DNA of 64,000 nucleotides from Ascidia mentula (Eukaryota > Chordata > Ascidiacea > Phlebobranchia > Ascidiidae), in the NCBI GenBank assembly GCA_947561715.1, contig OX387203.1, forward strand, positions 5,456,001 to 5,520,000, in the 5' to 3' direction. Positions within the stretch are counted from its first letter, which is position 1. Every line of letters begins with the position of its first letter. Under the pieces are notes generated by a model. It did not search any database. It saw nothing but the letters and a program-made list of their open reading frames with translations, and was not told where the DNA came from. Of this stretch, positions 1,416 through 56,612 are shown piece by piece. The translations under genes and the position numbers were made by a program.

Positions 1416-2164
1416 ACTTTTCTATTATTGATAAGCCGAAACAGGCAGTTTACTTTTTACATTGACATCGCATCGGCATCAGACAACACTTATCTCACTG
1501 ACAATGAAAGTACAGAAATACCTGAACATAGATAAAACAAAATAATTCATGAAGGCAGCTTTATTAAAGAAAAAATCCAGCCTCTCATTGCGTGCTGACA
1601 GTCTCAGCGGTCTGAGTAAGAAAGTAAACAAAATACTACAGCGCTGACGAAAGGAATAAAAACAGCTGATTTAACTGCACGAATCGATGTGATTGATAAA
1701 AATTCCCGGGTTTTCGATTCCGTGCACGAGTTCTCAAGTTGTAATTCGTTTCAGACGAAAATGGTGGATGTTTGTTGTTTTACAAATTTATCGATCTGCG
1801 TTTCAAACTTGTTTAAGTGATATTTACGCCTAAGTGTAGTTGTATTGCAAAACTTCTGTGTGTAAAGAAACGAAAAATGCCTGTAGCCTGTATGATTGTT
1901 CGGCCTATATTTAATCTTTGTGTTTGTGTCCTTTTTGCCACGGAATAAGTCATATACCAAGTAGTCTCTAGTCGCGCTATAAACCTTAATAGTAATAATG
2001 TTTGGACAAAAGTCCTTTAAATTAGTTTTCCAAAAGAAAGCTACCAGTTCCCTTTTTAATGTTTCCTTACAATATTTAATTTATATTAATATATATGGGC
2101 TTAAATTATATTCCAATAATTTGTTAGCAGAATATATGTGTACTTAACACTCTACTGCCTCATC
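1416..2164. promoter_or_regulatory. head-to-head intergenic region, probable shared promoter
   Basis: About 750 bp separates the start codons of two divergent genes. No TATA box stands out. An AG lies six bases before the minus-strand ATG, and ttgttag lies about 35 bases before the plus-strand ATG at 2165, so trans-splice acceptors are possible. Nothing else is recognisable. Confidence 0.35.
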
Positions 2165-3046
2165 ATGTCTACAACAATATCACATGATTGCTTGAGCTCG
2201 CAAAATGATGCATCAGTTACATCATTTTCAACAATACACTTTGTGCCTCAACCACTACCATTCAAGTGTCACTACATACAAAACCGAATCTTTGTCGGTA
2301 ACCTGCCACCAAATGCATGTAGAAGAGAAATCATACAACTGTTTCGACAATTTGGAGAAATAACTGAAACCAATCTAATTCAAGATGAAGGAAGAGTAAT
2401 AGCTTTTGTTACATTTACCAACGTCGACTCCGCAAATGCTGTGCTAAGTTTGTACAAGAGAGGAAGACCTTTCATGCTTCATGGTTACATGATTAAAATA
2501 AACCGAGCTTACTTTAAGCCTAAGAAACCAAGCCCACAGGATAACTTTGACAATTCCCAGCAGATTGTTTCCCTCTTAAACAATCAGATTGGTTTTGGTG
2601 GTGTGTATTACAATGGCATGGTTTATTATCAACAGCTAAGCCAAATGGGTAATGTACATAATGGCATGCAAAGTCGTGAAGGTCTCTGGAATTTCCAAAG
2701 TTTGCAGCAGGCTTTGCCACAGCCTCAAGCATTTCAGACCCCACCAGGATCACATTTATCACCAATCTTGCCTCCTCCTCCACATTATCCAATTGTACAA
2801 CAAACATATCAAACGGAGTACAACATTAACCATAATGTAAACATCAATCAATTTCTTCCACAAACACCTGATACTTTGAGGATGTCAGAATATGAAGATA
2901 ATGGGTATTCTTCAATGCAAGAAGCTAGTAGCTGTGAGGATTTGAATCATGTGGGCCAAACTTGGGAAAATCAGGATGCAAAGACACTCTCATTTGTTTG
3001 GTGTAACAATGAGAATTGCTTGCAGAATTCAAATGAAAACAAATGA
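2165..3046 (+). CDS. RRM RNA-binding protein, Boule/DAZ-like, intronless
   Basis: A single exon of 293 codons. The first ATG in frame is at 2165; the reading frame is open slightly upstream but only with a GTG. One RRM spans about residues 37-120: RNP2 is RIFVGNL, preceded by IQN as in Boule/DAZ (IPNRIFVG). RNP1 is GRVIAFVTF, which lacks the usual KGYGF aromatic/glycine core. About residues 145-155 read VYYNGMVYYQ, resembling the YHNGVAYF segment after the RRM in Boule proteins. The tail is rich in Q, N, P and Y, as in that family. Family knowledge: Boule/DAZ proteins bind 3' UTRs and promote translation in germ cells. Odd points are the lack of introns and the divergent RNP1, which suggest a retrocopy or a fast-evolving paralogue. 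Another RRM family cannot be excluded. Confidence 0.65.
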   Translation: MSTTISHDCLSSQNDASVTSFSTIHFVPQPLPFKCHYIQNRIFVGNLPPNACRREIIQLFRQFGEITETNLIQDEGRVIAFVTFTNVDSANAVLSLYKRGRPFMLHGYMIKINRAYFKPKKPSPQDNFDNSQQIVSLLNNQIGFGGVYYNGMVYYQQLSQMGNVHNGMQSREGLWNFQSLQQALPQPQAFQTPPGSHLSPILPPPPHYPIVQQTYQTEYNINHNVNINQFLPQTPDTLRMSEYEDNGYSSMQEASSCEDLNHVGQTWENQDAKTLSFVWCNNENCLQNSNENK

Positions 3047-5194: not shown

Positions 5195-8100
5195 GAAATA
5201 CAGACTCACCATAGAAGGTGGTTGCTCAGTTTAATATCTTGGATTGCAAGAGCTCTGTGCAATCGCATGTGTGACATATAATGACTTAAAACCCGATCTA
5301 TGTCCACTACGTTGTGTTTTTAGAACTTTTGTTGCTATTATCTTTTCAGTTTCACTGCTATTCGATTCATAAATTGTTTTAAAAAAATCTGCTTTGTTCT
5401 CTGTCATTGATTGCATGATAGAAGTTTTACAATGTGGCATTCGAGTAATAACATGCTACAATTGAAACAGTTTTGGTTGAGACATAAAAACTTGTAGATA
5501 CCCAAAGCAGTTATGAATTTCAAGCTACAAGTCATAATGTCTTGCAAATTTATAGATGACAAGGCAATTTCACATAGAGATTTTATTTTTTGATCACATC
5601 TTACATAAATTAAGATTTCTGAGTAACTTCTAAAACATAAGTCAGTGAATGGCGCTCACGGAGATAATAAAACAGTAAAAAGCGTTCTGAACACAAACTC
5701 TACGCAAAGCAAATAAGTTTTGAAAGTGAAGATTGAAATGTGGAGCTTTGAAAACATTAAAAGTAATGGCAGAATGGTTTTTTAGCGTCACTTTCTAGCT
5801 TATGGCAATACAAAGTATAAGTACAACGAATTGAATGCAAACTGCTCAATTCTGTGGACTACACATTACACCAGCTGCAGAAAAGCATCAAAAAGAATAA
5901 AATTCAAACATTCCACAAGGCATTGTTCACAAAAACAAATATGTAGGCATCGGGAAAAAAAAACTTGTTAATTCTGTGGGTTCCAAAATTTTTGAATGCA
6001 AGACAGTGGAAAATGGCATGCCACAAAATATAATTCGGGAACAATTGTATAGACTGCCACTTCAAAAATACATTTTTCTTACTCAACCAGTGTGGACAGT
6101 ATTTCAAGTAGCCAAATAATTGGACACCGTAACACTGGACGTATACTCACAGCCAATTTGCCTTTGAAAGAAGTCATGGTATGGAAATTAAATATTTTCA
6201 GTAACAATACAAGACTCCAGCCAAAATTGTGCAAAACCAACAAACATTCATTTTGTTCTGCCCCTTATGAGGTAAGACTTGACAAATTGATCAAAATTAT
6301 AAAGAGAATATCTTTAAGAGAATATAGTGAAGTTCGAGTTAAAAAGTTGGAAAAGATACATCTTTGTACGAAGGAAGGCACTATCCAAGATTTAAAACAG
6401 GCCCAATATTTTTGCAATCGATAAATGGAAAAGTACAAAGCATTTTTCACTGTATGGCTAGAAAGGACACTTTCAAATTGTCAGCCATAAACAAGCTGAA
6501 CTTTTGTACTTTCAAACTGCTAATAGTTTCAAGAATAGGCAAAAATATTAGCATAAGGATATGTAGTACCACAAAAAAAATGACCAAGCAAATTTGTAAT
6601 TGTCAACAAGTTGATTTTTATGTCAAGCAGTTAGGAAAAAAGGGACATACCCCAAACACTGTTAAGTTGCTTTGATGCATGAATGTCCTGCATAAAATGC
6701 ATAAAAGAAAATTGTTTAAAAGACAAAAGAAGCAGAAATAAATGAGATACTCATTTCACATTACTGCATTTCATAATACAGCAACACAAATAGGAAATAC
6801 ATCGTCATATACAAGTCCAGGTCAACAGCCATTGATGTGGCACCTGCAATGGCGGGCAGGTGTAACATTAGTTAGATTAGTATTCTTTTGATATATTTTG
6901 TACACAGAAGATGCCATCTACAACTGCCGGCCTTCACTTGTATACTTTTGTGTATTTGTTTGCGCAAGAAAAACTTAAAAGCAACAAAAAACTGAATGTA
7001 CACAATTAGAATATGGCAAAAGCATCTAATGACAAATTTGTAACTCGCTGCATGACAAAGAAGGTCTTAATCAGTGACTGCAAAATGGCATAAAGCTTTG
7101 TTCCTATTTGTCAATAAACCAAGCTTTTAACTGCATGAATAATAACAGACGGTTTGTAATTGAAGGCGACAATTTCAGTGCCGGTAATGGAGAATTGAAT
7201 AGAGCAAGTGTTGTTTTATGTACAGTAGTTGACCTTTACTCAATGACATGTGCACATGAAGGTCAAAAGTAATGAACGATTGACAAAAAATGTAGATCAG
7301 CACAAAGTCTCCAGGGTGACATGTGTATATTGGCTTCCTCTTTTACATAAGCTATGCAGTATGACAAATAGAAAGATAATCTCAGGCATGCCAAAAAACA
7401 GTTATATCGACTGAAGTGCTTCAAACAGGGGACCACGATATACACCGAATGAAACAAGCACAAAATTGAAGTTTAAGACATCATTTTATCCACAATAGGT
7501 CAGACTATTTGATTGGAAGCGTTTTACCACTAAAATATTCATTTATAGCTAGTATAAAAGCTTAGAAAGAAATAGATGCCAAAAAACAATAGAATTAAAA
7601 ATATTCCACTGAATTAAACAATTTTAAATGAGGTGTGCATTAAAGCTTTCCAAGGCACTGTTTTCTCAAACTAAACCACACATAATGCTTGCAGTGAGTT
7701 GAAGGACTGCATATCACGTCGGAGTGCTTCTTCTTGTAAAAGAACTTCAAAACCATAAAACACTGTAGCTTCAATGCACAATCGTCCGAGTAATGAAAAA
7801 AGCAAAGAAAAATGAAGCAGTGGGACCTACAAACATACAAACAATGTGAATAGTTTGTCTTTTAAAGCAGCAAGCCTCCAATTTTTGTTAGTTGTATGGA
7901 GAAAAATCAATTTTACGTATCCCATCATCATCAGTTTCTTAATGGTTTACTGGGATAATATCAGCAACAGTTAAAACCAGACAAAACCCACATTAACACA
8001 AGTTTAAACAGTCTGTGCTCATTTACATGCATACACATGGTCGCCAAACACATCTAACCATGAATGTAACATGTCCTTATTAGTTGGTGATATTTTACTG

Positions 8101-39200: not shown

Positions 39201-41815
39201 TATTCAACTCCACAAACCACTCTCTTGCAGGATTCAATAACAAAACGGTGATAAGGTAGGAAAATTGCCCAGTGGATTTGCTGTGGAGTAGCTTGATTGT
39301 TAAACCAAAGTAAAAATTTGACTTGAAAAACAGTTTGAGTTAAAAAAAAGTAAATACACCATTACTTATATATGTAACACAGCATGACCATTAGTGTGTT
39401 TGATAGTTTACCCAGCGAGCTATGACGTCCTCAATTAATGTATTGCCCAAAATTCCCATCTTTCTAACTTAAATCCAATGCATTTCCAACATTTAATTTC
39501 CTATAATGTAATTGTTTACAAGAAACAACACACCGCTTTTACCAATATATTGTAAAATCGTCCAAGACGCCTGATCGATAGAATATATATATTGCAATAA
39601 CCTATGCAGTTGTCATTGGGAGATCTATGTTTTAAAATATTTCTACTCATACACTTGAACGCAAATTCGCGATGTTTTTAACATCACCGTAACGCAAACT
39701 GACAGAAATACTTAACAGGTGGGCAGGAAATGCAACGAACCCAGTGCGGATCGAAAAGCGTCTACGTCATTTCACGAACAACCCATTCTGGGTGATTGAG
39801 ACCTTCTGCATATCCTGGTTTACAATTGAGGCGAGTGGGAAGCGGTCATTAATAATGCAGAAACTCTTATGTGTTAAAGCTTTGCGCACAAGAGCCGACT
39901 TTGAGCACTTGCATTAAATATTGATACTCGGAGGCTGTGATTTACAACACCAATGGTTTTTGAATGAGACGCGCTTGAGAAAATAATCACCACTAGTGAC
40001 CCACTTTTTCTTTCATTTTAATCCTCTTTATTGGGTATACAGCCTTGGTAACAGGGGCATGTCCAGAAATTTTTTCTAAAGGGGGCGGTCACTATCCAAT
40101 AATCCCTTCTACGAACTAATGGGGATTATGAACGCTTGACGGGAATACGTGTGTCAGACAAAAGTACGCTGGTGATGAACGGAAAGCAATCTCAAGACAA
40201 TCACTTTTTCTGCCACGTTAGAGATTTTTGCAGGGTTATAACCAGTGGTGGGATTCAGAACCGTCTCACGAAATTTTATGAGATCAGCGAACCGGTTAGC
40301 ATCACTGGTTACTGTCAATATGACTTTTTGTAACACAACCCGCTGAAAAATATGACTTTTGTGATAGAACCGACTGACAAAAAATTTGAATCCCACCACT
40401 GTTTTAAACCTATTTTAGGGGGGTGATCACCCCATTCCTCTTTTACATCCGTCCTTGTTTGGTAAAAGCAAACGGTTTTATGCAACCAGTAAAAACTTCA
40501 AATGTTGTCTCCTTCGATATTGAACGAGAGTCAAAGAGCTGAAATAGTAATAGGCGTTGGCTTGATAAACATTTCTCAGAGTGATTTTGTAGCGTTTACA
40601 CCAAAATAAAAAAAAGAAAACTTCTACGTCGCATTTAACACATTCTTTCCTTTTTACAGCTGATGTGTCGTTTCATTACCTGTCCGCGCAAAACCCAATT
40701 CTGCTTCGACGTTCTCAATATTATTGATTTAGTTGCTATTGTACCTTATTTTGTCACCACGGCTTCACAAGCGACGTCAGAAGACAGTAACCGTAAGTCA
40801 AACACAAAGTATATTAATGTAAACCATTTACAGCGCGTGGGATCTGTGGGCTGGAAGGTCAACGTTTTTATTATTCTGATCAAAACTGGCCCCTAACCAA
40901 ACCTTTTATAAATAAAGCAACATAATAACTATTTAACTACCACTTTGACTTGCGAGTTAATCAGATCAAAAAATAATTAGAAAAATAAGTCCATTGTAAC
41001 GACTTTTCTGATGCGTTTCCACAATCATCTTGTTTTTCCGTCTTTGTCTACAAGCAATAATTTATTATTGTCGTTTATTGCAGCTGCCAATGCGAATAAA
41101 GGAATCTCGTTGGCTTTTATTCGTGTTGTTCGTCTTGTTCGAGTCTTCCGAATATTCAAACTTTCCCGCCATTCTACGGGATTGCAGATACTCGCCCAAA
41201 CCCTCAGGTCGAGTTTCAGGGAACTCGGTCTTCTTCTTTTCTTCGTCCTGATCGGGGTAGTTCTCTTCTCAAGTGCGGTTTATTTTGCCGGTAAGTGTAA
41301 GGTTGATCTAATCTACTTTGTTTCTGCTCGGTTTTGTACAAAAACTCGCATCTAGAATTCAGTGTGACTGGAGGTATGTCTTAAAGATCGTAGTTTTCGA
41401 TGTTCCTATATAAAAATTCATCAGTTTTGGAACTTAAACAACAAACAAAGCTTTGTAGCTTGGTAAAAAAAAGGGTTTGTGTCCTAAATTTTGCTCTAGG
41501 TTGGAGACAGAGTTGGGTCTTTTCAAAGCCAGTAGAATATCACATCACAGTGCGGTTCCTGTTTCAGAAATCGACTCCGGTCAAACGACCTATTTCACCA
41601 GCATCCCCGACGCCTTCTGGTGGGCGATCGTTACCATGACAACTGTGGGATACGGCGACATGCATCCGATCACGGCGGCGGGCAAAGTTGTGGGAAGCGT
41701 CTGTGCCCTCACTGGCATCCTATGCCTCGCCTTGCCCGTACCAGTCATCGTCTCCAACTTCATGTATTTCTACCAAAGAGCCGTGGCCAACCGCAAGAGG
41801 GACGTGTTCAGATGA
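33209..41815 (+). CDS. KCNA: voltage-gated potassium channel alpha subunit, Shaker/Kv1 type
   Basis: Nine exons join in phase: 33209-33437, 33768-33947, 35383-35615, 37825-37951, 38949-39255, 39719-39830, 40660-40792, 41084-41290 and 41568-41815, giving 591 residues. T1 tetramerisation domain about 152-250 ([27 protein letters not shown], a Kv1 signature). S1 about 300-324, S2 379-397, S3 412-430. S4 has charges every third residue at R454, R457, R460, R463, K466 and R469. S5 489-509, selectivity filter TVGYG at 535-539, S6 with the PVP hinge at 566-568. GYGDMHP matches the outer mouth of Kv1.3. N-glycosylation sequons lie in the S1-S2 loop. Only about 17 residues follow S6 and no PDZ-binding tail is present. 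Exon 6 ends in a GC donor. Family role: tetrameric delayed-rectifier or A-type K+ channel of neurons and muscle. The ATG at 33209 follows an acceptor at 33188. AATAAA at 42648-42653 may end the transcript. Confidence 0.98.
40045..40455. mobile_element. degraded outer hAT-like element hosting the inner MITE
   Basis: CTAAAGGGGGCGGTCAC at about 40,076 and the complement of TAGGGGGGTGATCACC near 40,418 look like paired ends around the inner element. The extreme ends (CAGGGGCATGTCC; complement CAAGGACGGATGT) match poorly, so boundaries are approximate. Confidence 0.45.
40243..40401. mobile_element. hAT MITE inserted in Kv1 intron 6
   Basis: 159 bp. The left end CAGTGGTGGGATTCAGAA and the complement of the right end CAGTGGTGGGATTCAAAT agree over the first 15 bases. 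Flanking octamers (GTTATAAC, TTTTAAAC) agree at five of eight positions, so the duplication is decayed or the ends are slightly off. Confidence 0.8.
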
Positions 41816-46177: not shown

Positions 46178-46204
46178 GAACTGAACTGAACTGAACTGAA
46201 CTGA
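46178..46204. repeat. CTGAA pentanucleotide microsatellite
   Basis: About five uninterrupted copies of the five-base unit. Confidence 0.85.
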
Positions 46205-47115
46205 GGGCATTTGTTTTTTTATATACTGCGAGTGCTGGGTTTACAATGTTCCAAATGATGAAGGTCTAACAACGTAAATATAACCGCTGGACAAACTCCC
46301 GTTAACTCTCGCTCATTCCAAAACAAACTATTAAGCTTCATACCAAATACAATAGGCATCTGCAGAGTTTTGTCAATTGTCATCGTTAATCAGAAGCAAA
46401 GTGAAGACAAAGGTCGAAGCAGTGGCATAAGTTGCAGCTCACGAAGTCGTTGCTTGTGTGGTTATTCGAGCATTTGCAATGATGCGGGGGTTAAGGTGGT
46501 TTGTTCGGTAATTATTGGGTAGAGGTTGGATTATTAGGTCAGCATATGTAACAAAAATGTGTTTGTGCTACCAATGACGTCTGAGTTGAAACTCCAGTGA
46601 ATAAAGCATGTGACTGAAAAACCACCTTAGTCAACTCGCTCTGTGTAAAACCTTTCAATTTACAAGTTAAAAGGGAAAATCCTGCTCTAGGTCATCGTCA
46701 CCAGGTTTAGTGTAGGGGTTAGCGCCCTCTGCTCTCAACTCGCTGTTCCACAGTTCGAATCCCAGTGAACGCGGACTTCTGCGATTCATTTTGGGGAAGA
46801 CTTCTACAATCAGAAAGCTAAAAGGGCATTTAGGTTACCAAACTATCGTCACCAGCCGTGGTGTAGAGGTTAACGCCCCCCTCTATTGATGCTCTGCACC
46901 ACAGTTCGAACCCCGGTAAAGTTAATACTTCTTTCCCGGTAACCGTTAATTCACTTCGGGTTCGGACTTATCCCACTCTAATTAAATTAACGCTGGTGAC
47001 ACCTCTCCGTGTGTGTGCCTGTCACGGATGGGTAAAAGTAATTCGGTAATTATCTTTCTCACCCTTGTTAACTCACTGAAATCAGGCTAAGGATCGCGGC
47101 CAGGTAGCCCTGCGT

Positions 47116-47278
47116 TTAGTCAGGCTAAGAAGTCCCCGCTTCTGAGTTGGCCACCGAGATCCGAAAACACATCTTATGCTCCACCAGGGAGCGCCCCATC
47201 AGGGGGCAAGTGTCCCATCAGGGGGCATAGGCAGGTGGCCAACTCAGAAGCGGGCGCATAAGGAGATTAGTCAGGTAA
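47116..47278. mobile_element. hairpin insertion inside the block 1 spacer
   Basis: A perfect 21-bp inverted repeat sits at 47135-47155 and 47234-47254 (outer part CCCGCTTCTGAG, inner part TTGGCCACC). Between the arms is CCCATCAGGGGGCA, nearly duplicated. The insertion is bounded by near-identical direct repeats TTAGTCAGGCTAA and TTAGTCAGGTAA, which look like a target-site duplication. Copies recur at 49,852-50,014 and 52,436-52,598, so it entered before block amplification. Confidence 0.7.
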
Positions 47279-47891
47279 TGATTTTGCAAAATTTAAGAAA
47301 AATTTGTGTATGTCCCCTTGTTATTTCTGGATATTTTGTTTAGGTCGGGTTTAGGTTTTGCTTGCCTTTAACGATAGTGGGATGGGATTTAGTGGCGGTG
47401 AGAGTGAGTTCTGATTACTACTTGGGGACTCGGGACTTTTTGTATCTTACGTTAACGGGACTTACTACAATGGACTTACTGCATTTCTACATTTAGCACT
47501 TCTGGGTTATGCCCGGGACTTACTGGTGGTTAGATAATGTTCTGATAATTAATGAACGGGATTGACTTAGTTACGATAATTACTAATCATGGCGCACATG
47601 CATTATGTTGATGGTTTATTGCTGGGACTTACGGTCACCAAGATCGAGTTATAACGACTGTGGGTTATGCCCGGGACTTATTAGAGGTTAGACTAAGCAC
47701 AGACAATTACTGACTTGGCATTGACTGAATTTTGTTATTACAGTGGTTATGACTGGGACATTTGTGGAAGGCGGGTTACGATATTTATCAGTACAGACCT
47801 CCGTATTAAGGAGGATCGCCAGTTCAATTTTAACTGAGATGGGATAGTTCGAACCCAACGTGATTTATCCATTATGGTGGAAGAAGTTGCC

Positions 47892-47963
47892 TTTACCGGG
47901 GTTCGAACTCGGGTGCAGAGCATTACAAGACAGTGACTTTAACCTCTACACCACGACTGGCGA
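47892..47963 (-). repeat. minus-strand tRNA-like unit, block 1
   Basis: On the minus strand TGGTGTAGAGGTT is followed by GAGTTCGAACCCCGG. The T-stem CCGAG/CCCGG pairs at four of five positions, better than in the plus-strand monomers, and CTTGTAA sits where an anticodon loop would be. The acceptor stem does not pair. It is divergent from the plus-strand unit at 48072. Confidence 0.75.
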
Positions 47964-49590
47964 CGGTTTGAGGCAGTTTTAAGTTGTGCTTATTTCTAAA
48001 ATCATCTCTAGGTAAAACTTCTCCAATAAGAAACTTAAAAGGGTAATTATATCAGGAAACCGTCATAACCAGCACTGGTGTAGAGGTTAACGTTCCTTTC
48101 TCCTATTGCTATGCACCACAGTTCGAACCCCGGGAAGGATGAAATTATAACAATTGTTTTTACGTAAAACATCTGCAATCAGGAAGCTAAAAGAGCCATT
48201 ATTTCTTTGAAGTATCGTCAATGGCCGTGGTGTAGAGGTTAACGTTCCGATATCCTAATGATCTGCACCACAGTTCGAACCCCGCTATGGTTGGAATTAT
48301 CACGATTTCTTTTAGGTAAAACATCTGCAATCAGATTGCAAAAAGGGCCATTAGTTCTTTGAAGTATCGGCAATAGACGTGGTGTAGAGGTTAACGTTCC
48401 AATATCCTAATGATCTGCACCACAGTTCGAACCCCGCTACGGTTGGAATTATCAGGATTGCTTTTAGGTAAAACATCTGGAATCAGGAAGCTAAAAGAGC
48501 CATTAGTTCTTTGAAGTATCGTCAATGGCCGTGGTGTAGAGGTTAATGTTCCAATATCCTAATGATCTGCACCACAGTTCGAACCCCGCTATGGTTGGAA
48601 TTATCACGATTATTTTTACGTAAAGCATCTGCAATCAGGAAGCCAAAAGAGCCATTAGTTCATTAAAGTATCGTCAATGGCCGTGGTGTAGAGGTTAATG
48701 TTCCAATATCCTAATGATCTGCACCACAGTTCGAACCCCGCTACGGTTGGAATTATCAGGATTGCTTTTAGGTAAAACATCTGGAATCAGGAAGCTAAAA
48801 GAGCCATTAGTTCTTTGAAGTATCGTCAATGGCCGTGGTGTAGAGGTTAATGTTCCAATATCCTAATGATCTGCACCACAGTTCGAACCCCGCCATGGTT
48901 GGAATTATCACGATTATTTTTACGTAAAGCATCTGCAATCAGGAAGCTAAAAGAGCCATTAGTTCTTTGAAGTATCGTCAATGGCCGTGGTGTAGAGGAT
49001 ACCGTTCCAATATCCTAATGATCTGCACCACAGTTCGAACCCCGCTACGGTTGGAATTATCAGGATTGCTTTTAGGTAAAACATCTGGAATCAGGAAGCG
49101 AAAAGAGCCATTAGTTCTTTGAAGTATCGTCAATGGCCGTGGTGTAGAGGTTAATGTTCCAATATCCTAATGATCTGCACCACAGTTCGAACCCCGCTAT
49201 GGTTGGAATTATCATGATTATTTTTACGTAAAGCATCTGCAATCAGGAAGCTAAAAGAGCCATTAGTTCTTTGAAGTATCGTCAATGGCCGTGGTGTAGA
49301 GGTTAATGTTCCAATATCCTAATGATCTGCACTACAGTTCGAACCCCGCTATGGTTGGAATTATCATGATTATTTTTACGTAAAGCATCTGCAATCAGGA
49401 AGCTAAAAGAGCCATTTGTTCTTAGAAGTTTCGTCAATGGCCGTGGTGTAGAGGTTAACGTTCCAATATCCTAATGATCTGCACCACAGTTCGAACCCCG
49501 CTATGGTTGGAATTATCTCAATTGTTTTTAGGTCAACATCTGCAATCAGAAAGCTAAGAGGGCAATTAGTTCTTTAAACCATCGTCACCA

Positions 49591-52174
49591 GCCGTGGTGT
49601 AGAGGTTAACGCCCCCCTCTATTGATGCTCTGCACCACAGTTCGAACCCCGGTAAAGTTAATACTTCTTTCCCGGTAACCGTTAATTCACTTCGGGTTCG
49701 GACTTATCCCACTCAAACTAAATTAACGCTGGTGACACCTCTCCTTGTGTGTGCCTGTCACGGATGGGTAAAAGTAATTCGGTAATTATCTTTCTCACCC
49801 TTGTTAACTCACTGAAATCAGGCTAAGGATCGCGGCCAGGTAGCCCTGCGTTTAGTCAGGCTAAGAAGTCCCCGCTTCTGAGTTGGCCACCGAGATCCGA
49901 AAACACATCTTATGCTCCACCAGGGAGCGCCCCATCAGGGGGCAAGTGTCCCATCAGGGGGCATAGGCAGGTGGCCAACTCAGAAGCGGGCGCATAAGGA
50001 GATTAGTCAGCTAATGATTTTGCAAAATTTAAGAAAAATTTGTGTATGTCCCCTTGTTATTTCTGGATATTTTGTTTAGGTCGGGTTTAGGTTTTGCTTG
50101 CCTTTAACGATAGTGGGATGGGATTTAGTGGCGGTGAGAGTGAGTTCTGATTACTACTTGGGGACTCGGGACTTTTTGTATCTTACGTTAACGGGACTTA
50201 CTACAATGGACTTACTGCATTTCTACATTTAGCACTTCTGGGTTATGCCCGGGACTTACTGGTGGTTAGATAATGTTCTGATAATTAATGAACGGGATTG
50301 ACTTAGTTACGATAATTACTAATCATGGCGCACATGCATTATGTTCATGGTTTATTGCTGGGACTTACGGTCACCAAGATCGAGTTATAACGACTGTGGG
50401 TTATGCCCGGGACTTATTAGAGGTTAGACTAAGCACAGACAATTACTGACTTGGCATTGACTGAATTTTGTTATTACAGTGGTTATGACTGGGACATTTG
50501 TGGAAGGCGGGTTACAATATTTATCAGTACAGACCTCCGTATTAAGGAGGATCGCCAGTTCAATTTTAACTGAGATGGGATAGTTCGAACCCAACGTGAT
50601 TTATCCATTATGGTGGAAGAAGTTACCTTTACCGGGGTTCGAACTCGGGTGCAGAGCATTACAAGACAGTGACTTTAACCTCTACACCACGACTGGCGAC
50701 GGTTTGAGGCAGTTTTAAGTTGTGCTTATTTCTAAAATCATCTCTAGGTAAAACTTCTCCAATAAGAAACTTAAAAGGGTAATTATATCAGGAAACCGTC
50801 ATAACCAGCACTGGTGTAGAGGTTAACGTTCCTTTCTCGTATTGCTATGCACCACAGTTCGAACCCCGGGAAGGATGAAATTATAACAATTGTTTTTACG
50901 TAAAACATCTGCAATCAGGAAGCTAAAAGAGCCATTAGTTCTTTGAAGTATCGTCAATGGCCGTGGTGTAGAGGTTAACGTTCCAATATCCTAATGATCT
51001 GCACCACAGTTCGAACCCCGCTATGGTTGGAATTATCACGATTTCTTTTAGGTAAAACATCTGCAATCAGATTGCAAAAAGGGCCATTAGTTCTTTGAAG
51101 TATCGGCAATAGACGTGGTGTAGAGGTTAACGTTCCAATATCCTAATGATCTGCACCACAGTTCGAACCCCGCTACGGTTGGAATTATCAGGATTGCTTT
51201 TAGGTAAAACATCTGGAATCAGGAAGCTAAAAGAGCCATTAGTTCTTTGAAGTATCGTCAATGGCCGTGGTGTAGAGGTTAATGTTCCAATATCCTAATG
51301 ATCTACACCACAGTTCGAACCCCGCTATGGTTGGAATTATCATGATTATTTTTACGTAAAGCATCTGCAATCAGGAAGCGAAAAGAGCCATTTGTTCTTT
51401 GAAGTATCGTCAATGGCTGTGGTGTAGAGGTTAACGTTCCAATATCCTAATGATCTGCACCACAGTTCGAACCCCGCTGTGGTTGGAATTATCATGATTA
51501 TTTTTACGTAAAGCATCTGCAATCAGGAAGCTAAAAGAGCCATTTGTTCTTTGAAGTATCGTCAATGGCTGTGGTGTAGAGGTTAACGTTCCAATATCCT
51601 AATGATCTGCACCACAGTTCGAACCCCGCTGTGGTTGGAATTATCATGATTATTTTTACGTAAAGCATCTGCAATCAGGAAGCTAAAAGAGCCATTAGTT
51701 CTTTGAAGTATCGTCAATGGCCGTGGTGTAGAGGTTAATGTTCCAATATCCTAATGATCTGCACCACAGTTCGAACCCCGCTGTGGTTGGAATTATCATG
51801 ATTATTTTTACGTAAAGCATCTGCAATCAGGAAGCTAAAAGAGCCATTTGTTCTTTGAAGTATCGTCAATGGCTGTGGTGTAGAGGTTAACGTTCCAATA
51901 TCCTAATGATCTGCACCACAGTTCGAACCCCGCTGTGGTTGGAATTATCATGATTATTTTTACGTAAAGCATCTGCAATCAGGAAGCTAAAAGAGCCATT
52001 TGTTCTTTGAAGTATCGTCAATGGCTGTGGTGTAGAGGTTAACGTTCCAATATCCTAATGATCTGCACCACAGTTCGAACCCCGCTGTGGTTGGAATTAT
52101 CTCAATTGTTTTTAGGTCAACATCTGCAATCAGAAAGCTAAGAGGGCAGTTAGTTCTTTAAACCATCGTCACCA
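49591..52174 (+). repeat. higher-order block 2 (2,584 bp)
   Basis: Same order as block 1: variant unit, spacer with hairpin, minus-strand unit and nine monomers (50808, 50960, 51112, 51264, 51416, 51568, 51720, 51872, 52024). It is exactly 152 bp, one monomer, shorter than block 1. The spacer differs from that of block 1 by only a few bases over about 1.1 kb. Three to five of the monomers are almost identical to one another (GCTGTGGTG variant), a local expansion. Confidence 0.9.
50628..50699 (-). repeat. minus-strand tRNA-like unit, block 2
   Basis: Near-identical to the unit at 47892-47963, with the same boxes and T-stem pairing. Confidence 0.75.
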
Positions 52175-53819
52175 GCCGTGGTGTAGAGGTTAACGCCCCC
52201 CTCTATTGATGCTCTGCACCACAGTTCGAACCCCGGTAAAGTTAATACTTCTTTCCCGGTAACCGTTAATTCACTTCGGGTTCGGACTTGTCCCACTCTA
52301 ACTAAATTAACGCTGGTGACACCTCTCCGTGTGTGTGCCTGTCACGGATGGGTAAAAGTAATTCGGTAATTATCTTTCTCACCCTTGTTAACTCACTGAA
52401 ATCAGGCTAAGGATCGCGGCCAGGTAGCCCTGCGTTTAGTCAGGCTAAGAAGTCCCCGCTTCTGAGTTGGCCACCGAGATCCGAAAACACACCTTATGCT
52501 CCACCAGGGAGCGCCCCATCAGGGGGCAAGTGTCCCATCAGGGGGCATAGGCAGGTGGCCAACTCAGAAGCGGGCGCATAAGGAGATTAGTCAGCTAATG
52601 ATTTTACAAAATTTAAGAAAAATTTGTGTATGTCCCCTTGTTATTTCTGGATATTATGTTTAGGTTTTGCTTACCTTTAACGATACTGCAGTGGGATTTA
52701 TAGTGGCGGTGAGAGTGAGTTCAGATTACTACTTGGGGACTCGGGACTTTGTGTATCTTACGTTAACGGGACTTACTGCATTTCTACATTTAACACTTCT
52801 GGGTTATGCCCGGGACTTACTGGTGGTTAGATTATGTTCTGATAATTAATGAACGGGATTGACTTAGTTACGATAATTACTATGGCGCACATGCATTATG
52901 TTCATGGTTTATTGCTGGGACTTACGGTCACCAAGGTCGAGTTATAACGATTCTGGGTTATGCCCGGGACTTAATAGAGGTTAGACTAAGTACAGACAAT
53001 TACCGACTTGGCATTTACTGATTTTTATTACTAGAGTGGTTATGACTGGGACATTTGTGGAAGGCGGGTTACGATATTTATCAGTACAGACCTCCGTATT
53101 AAGGAGGATCGCCAGTTCAATTTAAACCGAGAGGGGAAAGTTCGAACCCAACGTGATTTATCCGTTATGGTGGAAGAAGTTACCTTTACCGGGGTTCGAA
53201 CTCGGGTGCAGAGCATTACATGACAGTGACTTTAACCTCTACACCACGACTGGCGACGGTTTGAGGCAGTTTTAAGTTGTGCTTATTTCTAAAATCATTT
53301 CTAGGTAAAACTTCTCCAATAAGAAACTTAAAAGGGTAATTATATCAGGAAACGATCATAACCAGCACTGGTGTAGAGGTTAACGTTCCTTTCTCCTAAT
53401 GCTATGCACCACAGTTCGAACCCCGGGAAGGATGAAATTATAAGAATTGTTTTTCGGTAAAACATCTGCAATCAGGAAGCTAAAAGAGCCATTAGTTCTT
53501 TGAAGTATAGTCAATGGCCGTGGTGTAGAGGTTACCGTTCCAATATCGTAATGTTCTACACCACAGTTCGAACCCCGCTATGGTTAGAATTATCAGGATT
53601 GCTTTTAAGTAAAACATCTGCAATCAGAATGCGAAAAGGGCCATTAGTTCTTTAAAGTATCGTCGATGGCCGTGGTGTAGAGGTTACCGTTCCAATATCC
53701 TAATGATCTGCATCACAGTTCGAACCCCGCTATGGTTGGAATTATCACAATTGTTTTTAGGTCAACATCTGCAATCAGAAAGCTAAGAGGGCAATTAGTT
53801 CTTTAAACCACTGTCACTA
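52175..53819 (+). repeat. higher-order block 3 (1,645 bp, contracted)
   Basis: Variant unit, spacer with hairpin and several small deletions, minus-strand unit, then only three monomers (53365, 53517, 53669). It is more diverged from blocks 1 and 2 than these are from each other. Confidence 0.88.
53185..53256 (-). repeat. minus-strand tRNA-like unit, block 3
   Basis: Same unit as in blocks 1 and 2 with one or two substitutions; A- and B-box-like motifs are intact. Confidence 0.72.
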
Positions 53820-54390
53820 GCCGTGGTGTAGAGGTTAACGCCCCCTCTATTGATGCTCTGTTACGATAATTACTAATTGCTGGGACTTACGGTCACCAAG
53901 ATCGAGTTATAACAATTCTGGGTTATGCCCGGGATTAGAGGTTAGACTAAGTACAGATAATTACTTACTTGGCATTTACTGAAATTAATTTTATTATTAG
54001 AGTGGTTATGACTGGGACATTTGGAGAAGGCGGGTTACGATATTTATCAGTACAGACCTCCGTATTGAGGAGGATCGCCAGTTCAATTTTATCTGAGAGG
54101 GGATAGTTCGAACACACCGTGATTTATCCGTTATGGTGAAAGAAGTTACCTTTACCGGGGTTCGAACTCGGGTGCAGAGCATTACATGATAGTGACTTTA
54201 ACCTCTACACCAAGACTGGCGACGGTTTGTGGCAGCTTTAAATAAAACTTCTCCAATAAGAAATCTAAAAGGGTAATTACATATGGAAACTATTATCACC
54301 AGCACTGGTGTAGAGGTTAACGTACCAATATCTTAATGATTTGCACCACAGTTCGAACCCCGATAAGGATGGAATTATCACAATTATTTT
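53820..54390 (+). repeat. truncated higher-order block 4, right edge of the array
   Basis: The variant unit breaks at about 53,861 and jumps directly to the late part of the spacer, so roughly 0.9 kb including the hairpin is missing. A minus-strand unit (54,151-54,222) and one last plus-strand unit (about 54,305) follow. The array then ends in unique sequence at about 54,390. Confidence 0.8.
54151..54222 (-). repeat. minus-strand tRNA-like unit, block 4
   Basis: Same unit as in blocks 1-3. The A-box complement reads CTCTACACCAAG here, a single change. Confidence 0.7.
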
Positions 54391-54843
54391 CAGTAAGTCG
54401 AAGACCTCTTGCGTATATTGTCCTACGCGGATAGGGTCTTAACAACCACACGAGACGGATCTTTGTCACCTATTAGGTATTCATTTCCAAGCCAAATCAT
54501 ATTGAGTGCACAAGTCTGCAAAAATCGTGCAAAACAAAAATAACATTACGGATTTGTTTGGATTAATATAGTTATACTGTATATCAGCATTCCACTCCGA
54601 TGATGTACATCTGTTTATTGTATTTTTTGCGTGGTTAGAAAGCGAACATCAACACATCATTAAATGAATGCAAATCTTATTATTGCTTAAACAAACAATT
54701 AAAGCGGAAACAAAAAAATAGCAATCGTTTGTGCTACTCGCAAACTAATAACTGAACATTAATTGCCAGTCGAACTGGGAAACTGACGTATCATCAAAGC
54801 ATTAAAAACGTACTGTTCTGTGGTTTGTGTAACATCAAAACAG

Positions 54844-56612
54844 TTGGTGTAACATCAAAATCAGAATCAAAAACGTTTTGGTTTTTTATTTCTTCAATTA
54901 TTATCTTGTTGATTGTTGTACCTTGATTTGCGTGGAACACACTTTCCGAGAAATGTGAAAACTGTTGTATCTTTCGATATTGACCATTTTCTGGTCCAAT
55001 TTTGGCTGATTGGCATTGATATTATTGCGTAAGTTGGTGTAACATCAAAATCAGCTTCAAAAACGTTTGTTTTAAATTTTGTCAAATTATTTTCTTGTTG
55101 ATTGTTGTGCCTTGATTTGCGTGGTACACACTTTCCGAGAAATGTGAAAACTGTTGTATCTTTTGATATTGACCATTTTCTGGTCCAATTTTGACTGATT
55201 GGCATTGATATTATTGCGTATGTTGGTGTAACATCAAAATCAGCTCCAAAAACGTTTGTTTTAAATTTTGCCAAATTATTTTTTTGTTGATTGTTGTGCC
55301 TTGATTTGCGTGGTACACACTTTCCGAGAAATGTGAAAACTGTTGTATCTTTTGATATTGACCATTTTCTGGTCCAATTTTGACTGATTGGCATTGATAT
55401 TATTGCGTAAGTTGGTGTAACATCAAAATCAGCTTCAAAAACGTTTGTTTTAAATTTTGCCAAATTATTTTTTTGTTGATTGTTGTGCCTTGATTTGCGT
55501 GGTACACACTTTCCGAGAAATGTGAAAACTGTTGTATCTTTTGATATTGACCATTTTCTGGTCCAATTTTGACTGATTGGCATTGATATTATTGCGTAAG
55601 TTGGTGTAACATCAAAATCAGCTTCAAAAACGTTTGTTTTAAATTTTTGTCAAATTATTTTCTTGTTGATTGTTGTGCCTTGATTTGCGTGGTACACACT
55701 TTCCGAGAAATGTGAAAACTGTTGTATCTTTCGATATTGACCATTTTCTGGTCCAATTTTGACTGATTGGCATTGATATTATTGCGTATGTTGGTGTAAC
55801 ATCAAAATCAGCTTCAAAAACGTTTGTTTTAAATTTTGTCAAATTATTTTCTTGTTGATTGTTGTGCCTTGATTTGCGTGGTACACACTTTCCGAGAAAT
55901 GTGAAAACTGTTGTATCTTTCGATATTGACCATTTTCTAGTCCAATTTTGATTGATTGGCATTGATATTATTGCGTAAGTTGGTGTAACATCAAAATCAG
56001 CTTCAAAAACGTTTGTTTTGAATTTTTGTCAAATTATTTTCTTGTTGATTGTTGTGCCTTGATTTGCGTGGTACACACTTTCCGAGAAATGTGAAAACTG
56101 TTGTATCTTTCGATATTGACCATTTACTGGTCCAATTTTGATTGATTGGCATTGATATTATTGCGTAAGTTGGTGTAACATCAAAATCAGCTTCAAAAAC
56201 GTTTGTTTTAAATTTTTGTCAAATTATTTTCTTGTTGATTGTTGTGCCTTGATTTGCGTGGTACACACTTTCCGAGAAATGTGAAAACTGTTGTATCTTT
56301 CGATATTGACCATTTTCTGGTCCAATTTTGACTGATTGGCATTGATATTATTGCGTAATTGGTGTAACATCAAAATCAGCTTCAAAAACGTTTGTTTTAA
56401 TTTTTTGTCAAATTATTTTTTTGTTGATTGTTGTGCTTTGATTTGCGTGGTACACACTTTCCGAAAAATGCGTAAACTGCTGTAACTTGTGATTTTGACT
56501 GATGGGCATACATATGCTTGATTGTTCTGCCTTGATTGCCTGGTACACATTTGGCCATTTTCTGGTGAAATTTTGATAGATCTGTGTTGATTACGTTATG
56601 TATATATACCAT
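54844..56612. repeat. 189-bp satellite, about nine copies
   Basis: Unit starts marked by TTGGTGTAACATCAAAATCA lie at 54844, 55034, 55223, 55412, 55601, 55791, 55980, 56170 and 56359, a step of 189 or 190 bp. Copies are very similar; the first and last are diverged and the last fades out after about 56,460. Because 189 is 63 codons, the minus strand stays open for up to 229 codons across identical units. No start context, splice sites or family resemblance support translation. Confidence 0.92.

Follow-up and report, generated by a model that had tools for sequence, protein, structure and literature searches.

In tRNA-derived SINEs, tRNA-like A and B boxes head a longer body, and at TFIIIC boundary elements, such as the inverted-repeat boundaries of fission yeast, B-boxes are clustered in both orientations. 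Both arrangements recur in the array described here, which occupies positions 46,660–54,390 of a 64-kb window (the window being the whole stretch of Ascidia mentula DNA that was analysed). Unlike tRNA-derived SINEs, however, the long genes that we call S are undispersed and lie on one contig only, and unlike TFIIIC boundary elements the units of the array read, by sequence, as complete genes in which terminators and a conserved RNA body are present. On our best reading, the family would be nearest in kind to two sets of mammalian genes, for which we draw on the cited parts of the sources: rodent 4.5SH RNA is 94 nt long, 7SL/B1-derived and encoded by 700–800 genes in units of 4–5 kb (PMC3440375, PMC10137851), while hominid snaR-A is a 117-nt, Alu-related RNA with gene clusters on chromosome 19 (PMC9151912, PMC3440375). 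As far as these parts describe them, the array resembles 4.5SH in its many tandem units, internal A/B boxes, narrow taxonomic range and SINE-related head (PMC3440375, PMC10137851), and snaR-A in being lineage-restricted, with clusters of candidate Pol III ncRNA genes on one chromosome (PMC9151912, PMC3440375). It differs from 4.5SH, as described there, in that its heads are tRNA-like, its S and I genes are long, every block contains a convergent gene pair, its roughly 20 clusters are strung along one chromosome and its transcripts are predicted ones; it differs from snaR-A in having a convergent long partner, which the cited parts do not mention for snaR-A (PMC9151912, PMC3440375).

Searches for known families gave little to set beside these comparisons. 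ARAGORN called no tRNA, and over positions 46600–54500 neither the Rfam tRNA model nor the vault model matched at E ≤ 10. Four other Rfam matches to the array were obtained at E ≤ 10 and rejected, every one scoring under its gathering score, and the single match in the window at the gathering threshold lies outside the array. No published report of the S/I/M family was found in the open-licence PMC literature.

To define the units, we called A-box-like TGGTGTAGAGGTTA and B-box-like AGTTCGAACCCC motifs with up to 3 and 2 mismatches, respectively, which yielded 31 pairs, 27 on the forward strand and 4 on the reverse. The B-box starts 44 bp after the A-box start in all 31 pairs, with A-box starts running from 46708 to 54306, and no further pair at this spacing occurs elsewhere in the 64-kb window; the 31 units with boxes at constant spacing in both orientations, as given in a preliminary description of the locus, were thus confirmed. 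A 32nd unit (A-box 53824) retains its A-box and has lost its B-box. The monomer period is 152 bp (TRF), with no empty 152-bp slot within the three M arrays, and higher-order blocks repeat at lengths of 2736 and 2557–2584 bp. Mean column entropy across the 31 units is 0.04 bits in the A-box and 0.02 bits in the B-box, values biased downward because the units were located via their boxes, compared with 0.55 bits between the boxes and 0.81 and 1.04 bits in the flanks.

The units fall into three classes, M, S and I, according to how far beyond the B-box the first TTTT occurs (Table 1). In M-type units a run of four or five Ts lies 25–26 nt past the B-box in 24/24 cases (22 in the arrays and 2 at the edges), in agreement with the T-run first reported for the 152-bp monomers. 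S units (A-boxes 46859, 49595 and 52179) are free of TTTT for 367 nt past the B-box in 3/3 cases, and I units, all on the reverse strand (A-boxes 47953, 50689, 53246 and 54212), for 519–595 nt in 4/4. The proposal that the units are short Pol III genes with an RNA of about 100 nt therefore fits the M units, which have a predicted RNA of ∼100 nt, but neither S, with a predicted RNA of ∼437 nt, nor I, which is longer. S is the final forward unit of each block and stands just before an apparent spacer, in which S, running rightward, and I, running leftward, converge (S TTTT at 47282–47285, I T-run at 47298–47302). Where a minus unit is followed head-to-head by a plus unit in the loci examined, the two are 120–124 bp apart in 35 of 41 cases.

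Table 1. Features of the array, in window coordinates
Feature	Position	Strand	Details
Left edge M-type unit	46699..46792	+	A-box 46708; T4 25 nt after B-box
S gene 1	46850..47286	+	A-box 46859; no TTTT for 367 nt; TTTT 47282-47285
31-nt S core	47105..47135; also 49841-49871, 52425-52455	+	identical in 68/68 genomic matches
S 3' hairpin	47135..47254	+	perfect 21-nt arms 47135-47155 / 47234-47254
I gene 1	47298..47962	-	A-box 47953; convergent on S; T5 12 bp from S TTTT
M array 1	48067..49529	+	10 units of 152 bp
S gene 2	49586..50022	+	terminator, copy alignment
I gene 2	50034..50698	-	terminator, copy alignment
M array 2	50803..52113	+	9 units
S gene 3	52170..52606	+	terminator, copy alignment
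I gene 3	52618..53255	-	terminator, copy alignment
M array 3	53360..53758	+	3 units
Truncated unit	53815..53860	+	A-box present, B-box absent
I copy 4	53876..54221	-	first ~345 nt matched; without adjoining S
Right edge M-type unit	54297..54390	+	A-box 54306

Several other features of the window were recorded. A perfect GAACT microsatellite of 5.4 copies (46178–46204) lies ∼500 bp to the left of the array, and to its right, at 54842–56499, is a second tandem array with a 189-bp period (8.8 copies, 96% matches) that contains a repetitive 229-aa minus-strand ORF with weak, scattered Pfam matches. The Rfam potassium channel RNA editing signal (K_chan_RES) matches a Shaker-like channel exon (TTVGYGDM) at positions 41645–41758, with a score of 82.6 bits; the match may stem from coding conservation, and the editing signal is a predicted one. 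An intronless 302-aa ORF with an RRM domain at 2138–3046, whose best named match is a boule-like protein of Phallusia mammillata, is possibly a retrogene.

To place the array in its genomic context, we searched 195.8 Mb in 79 contigs, including the contig that carries the array (C71; 19,871,177 bases). The 31-nt S core, searched with up to 3 mismatches, gave 68 matches, all within the interval 1.487–8.406 Mb of C71 (reversed-pattern control, 0), and a 20-mer at the S boundary, searched with up to 2 mismatches, gave 72 matches, again all on C71 and over the same interval (reversed-pattern control, 2). The search for dispersed copies called for in the preliminary description thus returned S from a single contig, and genome-wide dispersal, as seen in a SINE, is not found for S, although the internal Pol III promoter of a SINE is present. 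For I and M, all of the matches listed (100 of 239, 234, 209 and 266) were on C71, which leaves other contigs possible for both. The S core matches fall in about 20 clusters; the largest one fetched (7.784–7.824 Mb) holds 122 or 124 units, depending on the mismatch limit, and several loci stand singly, S and I there being preceded by one or two units. The clusters are spaced more evenly than under uniform placement (mean 364 kb, CV 0.49, p 0.0006), a statistic computed on clusters drawn by eye after the matches were known. The exact S core had no match in viral and prokaryote contig collections, which sets no bound on its wider distribution.

Comparison between clusters shows which parts of the M units persist. 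We collected 212 M units via their boxes (≤4 mismatches each) and compared 6000 random cross-cluster pairs, in which identity is 95% for the A-box and 92% for the B-box, figures inflated by the units having been found via the boxes, compared with 48–64% for the rest of the unit. The box-versus-linker comparison that had been suggested as a check thus shows the boxes to be the more conserved. A T4 starts 20–31 nt after the B-box in 177/212 units, with 8 T4 starts elsewhere within the first 60 nt, giving M, and likewise S (see below), the type-2 promoter and T-run terminator of 4.5SH- and snaR-like genes. This near T-run is missing in 35/212 units; it is rarer at 2.80–2.82 Mb (15/31 M units) and absent in 8/8 M units of single, non-arrayed loci. 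Predicted structure is weak: the folds of two M units are matched by 10/200 and 30/200 shuffles, and that of the first unit of array 1 by 183/200. The M monomers are conserved mainly at the boxes and the T-run.

S is conserved over its whole length. All 40 scored copies (from 151 first-look candidates) are 95–100% identical over the full length, and among the 44 copies in the examined loci, one of them incomplete at the edge of the examined stretch, the full-length ones range from 94.05 to 100%; a decayed copy, S7820702, matches at 88.6% over 307 nt only. All 68 genomic matches to the 31-nt core are exact, even though 3 mismatches were allowed, and an RNA gene with such an invariant core is likely to be either abundant or important. 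Identity between clusters is ∼96% over a stretch that opens at the predicted S 5' end and closes ∼65 nt beyond the terminator; the farther flanks are at 25–75%. In 22 aligned copies, mean pairwise identity is 0.67–0.75 over the 75 nt upstream. At the predicted 5' end it steps up from 0.73, reaching 0.96 in the first 25 nt; it remains at 0.88–1.00 up to position 424, is 0.84–0.88 at positions 425–499, where the S terminator and the I 3' end lie, and falls to 0.24–0.66 beyond. Conservation thus begins abruptly on the 5' side, and on the 3' side it extends ∼65 nt beyond the S terminator. The TTTT itself lies at position 429–435 in 42/43 copies in the loci examined, and the copies most similar to one another are neighbouring ones.

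The predicted S RNA carries a 3' hairpin with a 21-bp perfect stem just upstream of the TTTT. The full-length fold beats 100/100 shuffles (z −5.1), and that of the 3' region beats 200/200 (z −7.6). When the 147 pairs of the minimum free energy (MFE) model were scored over 37 distinct copies, 5262 cells were paired and 177 unpaired, and none of the 147 pairs showed a double change. The middle of the model is unsupported, because pairs 187–207 and 216–282 are broken in most copies. Sites that vary are fewer among paired positions (43/294) than among unpaired ones (39/143; Fisher p 0.0025, the copies being related and the p value a guide only).

S and I share a 5' domain, with heads 76% identical over 154 bp that are both predicted to form a three-way junction of a 7-bp closing stem, an A-box hairpin and a B-box hairpin. 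Among 62 distinct heads, the closing stem is CACCAGC/GCTGGTG in 30 S heads and CGCCAGT/ACTGGCG in 27 I heads; two I copies at 7.28 Mb have CACCAGT/ACTGGTG, and the stem is absent from I7821765. Over 60 distinct heads (1860 cells), 98.5% of cells are paired, compared with 96.9% in shuffles and 30–42% when the partners were slid, so that the head fold is well supported by paired cells. Double changes occupy 53 cells, versus 21 ± 8 expected, but all are in two pairs; the number of pairs with a double change is in no excess over shuffles (2 versus 1.6; 324/500), nor is that of further pair types (11 versus 13.0; 500/500). For I alone, RNAalifold finds double changes at 2/38 pairs, with a covariation term of only −0.4. 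In the head alignment, the aligner offset five S rows by 3 columns at the closing stem and these were scored as unpaired; another alignment with the same offset was excluded. A third compensatory change, at I8407179, was dropped since the motif match fell on a neighbouring place. Covariation in the heads is thus real, but thin, with few independent events. In one block of the 7.8-Mb cluster (S7800405; L071 ∼6400–7500), the S closing stem pairs at 5/7 positions and the accompanying I has an early T4, and this block looks to be decaying in both genes.

In the window, I units run ∼640–665 nt towards S and end in a T-run 12 bp from the S end. Their conservation is uneven: between clusters the first ∼170–230 nt are 80–91% identical and the last ∼50–80 nt 85–96%, while full-length matches outside the window are 69–73% identical. 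The first T4 of I lies 565–814 nt from its 5' end and 2–12 bp beyond the S terminator in 32/36 pairs, half of which belong to the 7.8-Mb cluster; there the placement holds for 14/18 pairs, the exceptions having gaps of 115, 115, 429 and 487, compared with 18/18 in ten other clusters. Beside seven further S copies, no I partner was found within the stretch examined. A T4-avoidance shuffle test of the bodies was discarded as circular, the bodies having been cut at the first T4. When one I body was randomly evolved to 28% divergence it was still T4-free in half of the trials; for that reason T4 absence in a single copy is weak evidence, and the argument for I rests on its fixed end point beside S. 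The full-length I fold is no better than shuffles (z −0.28; 8/20 as good). As a separate observation, the I bodies (47298–47962 and 17 other copies) are rich in TAAGTCC(C), with 40 occurrences in 18 related bodies versus ∼0.7 after base shuffling, often as GTAAGT, which resembles a 5' splice site.

We consider it likely that the array belongs to a lineage-specific Pol III ncRNA gene family whose clusters, about 20 in number, lie on one chromosome. The boxes, the terminators and conservation in the shape of a transcript speak for Pol III genes that are under selection, and most of all for S; we infer transcription by TFIIIC and Pol III, stable RNAs and a cellular role for the family from the DNA. 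The RNA data catalogued for Ascidia mentula are poly-A (ERR10378036; PMC11109543), a type in which Pol III transcripts may be missed. The tandem Pol III ncRNA gene cluster put forward in the preliminary description thus finds support, with the amendment that its units are of more than one kind. Each block would consist of a run of short M genes, then a long S gene and then a convergent I gene. The S RNA would fold into a three-way-junction 5' domain, the invariant core and the long 3' hairpin right before the TTTT, and I would have a 5' domain as in S, a body that evolves fast and, adjoining the end of S, a 3' end that is conserved. The sameness of S would be maintained by purifying selection on its RNA, to which concerted evolution could contribute, and a high dose is probably the purpose of the many copies.

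The rival readings turn on which parts of the blocks are conserved and where the copies lie. Tandem 152-bp monomers, higher-order repeats and tRNA-like boxes at tRNA spacing are what would be expected of a SINE-derived satellite, which would have arisen by tandem multiplication and homogenisation of a retroposon with a tRNA head, with the boxes surviving as relics of an RNA function since lost. This was itself one of the original suggestions, and it has been weakened to the point of being unlikely: the confinement of all 68 S core matches to one contig argues against a retroposon, and boxes, T-run and S persist between diverged clusters while linkers, flanks and I bodies drift, which is not the behaviour of a satellite without a constrained part, nor would such a satellite account for the fixed end of I beside S (32/36 pairs). 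The persistence of the boxes would also follow if they were selected as DNA binding sites in a TFIIIC-bound chromatin boundary or anchor and the RNAs were by-products, and here the box conservation, which is strongest in M, the even spacing of the by-eye clusters and the distance of 120–124 bp between most minus and plus neighbours (35/41) all fit. That reading leaves unexplained the conservation of the S body, the hairpin, the terminator positions and the RNA fold shared by S and I, and as an account of the whole array we regard it as quite unlikely; for the M arrays, the reading may hold even with S and I being RNA genes.

The likeness of the S copies might alternatively owe nothing to selection and be kept up by gene conversion, with cDNA of the S transcript perhaps serving as the template. 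The resemblance of neighbouring copies and the coincidence of the 5' conservation limit with the predicted transcript start are both in keeping with this, but the exchange would have to reach over megabases and both orientations while sparing M and the I body, and S sites in predicted pairs are less variable than unpaired ones (among related copies); this reading would, moreover, imply transcription too. We therefore judge it highly improbable. Returning to the reading of S and I as RNA genes, a bolder extension, which we hold to be very unlikely, is that S and I RNAs from the rather evenly spaced clusters mark their own chromosome in cis, for pairing, territory or dosage, with M serving as TFIIIC anchors. 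If true, a chordate would possess an RNA address system specific to one chromosome.

S has no matching Rfam family despite its invariant core, and if expressed, the genes would add to the chordates a Pol III RNA family that is large, structured and specific to its lineage. With its confinement to one chromosome, its long Pol III genes arranged tail-to-tail and its frozen S beside a fast-evolving I body, the family would offer a natural test bed for how Pol III genes originate from tRNA-like heads and for what keeps them on one chromosome.
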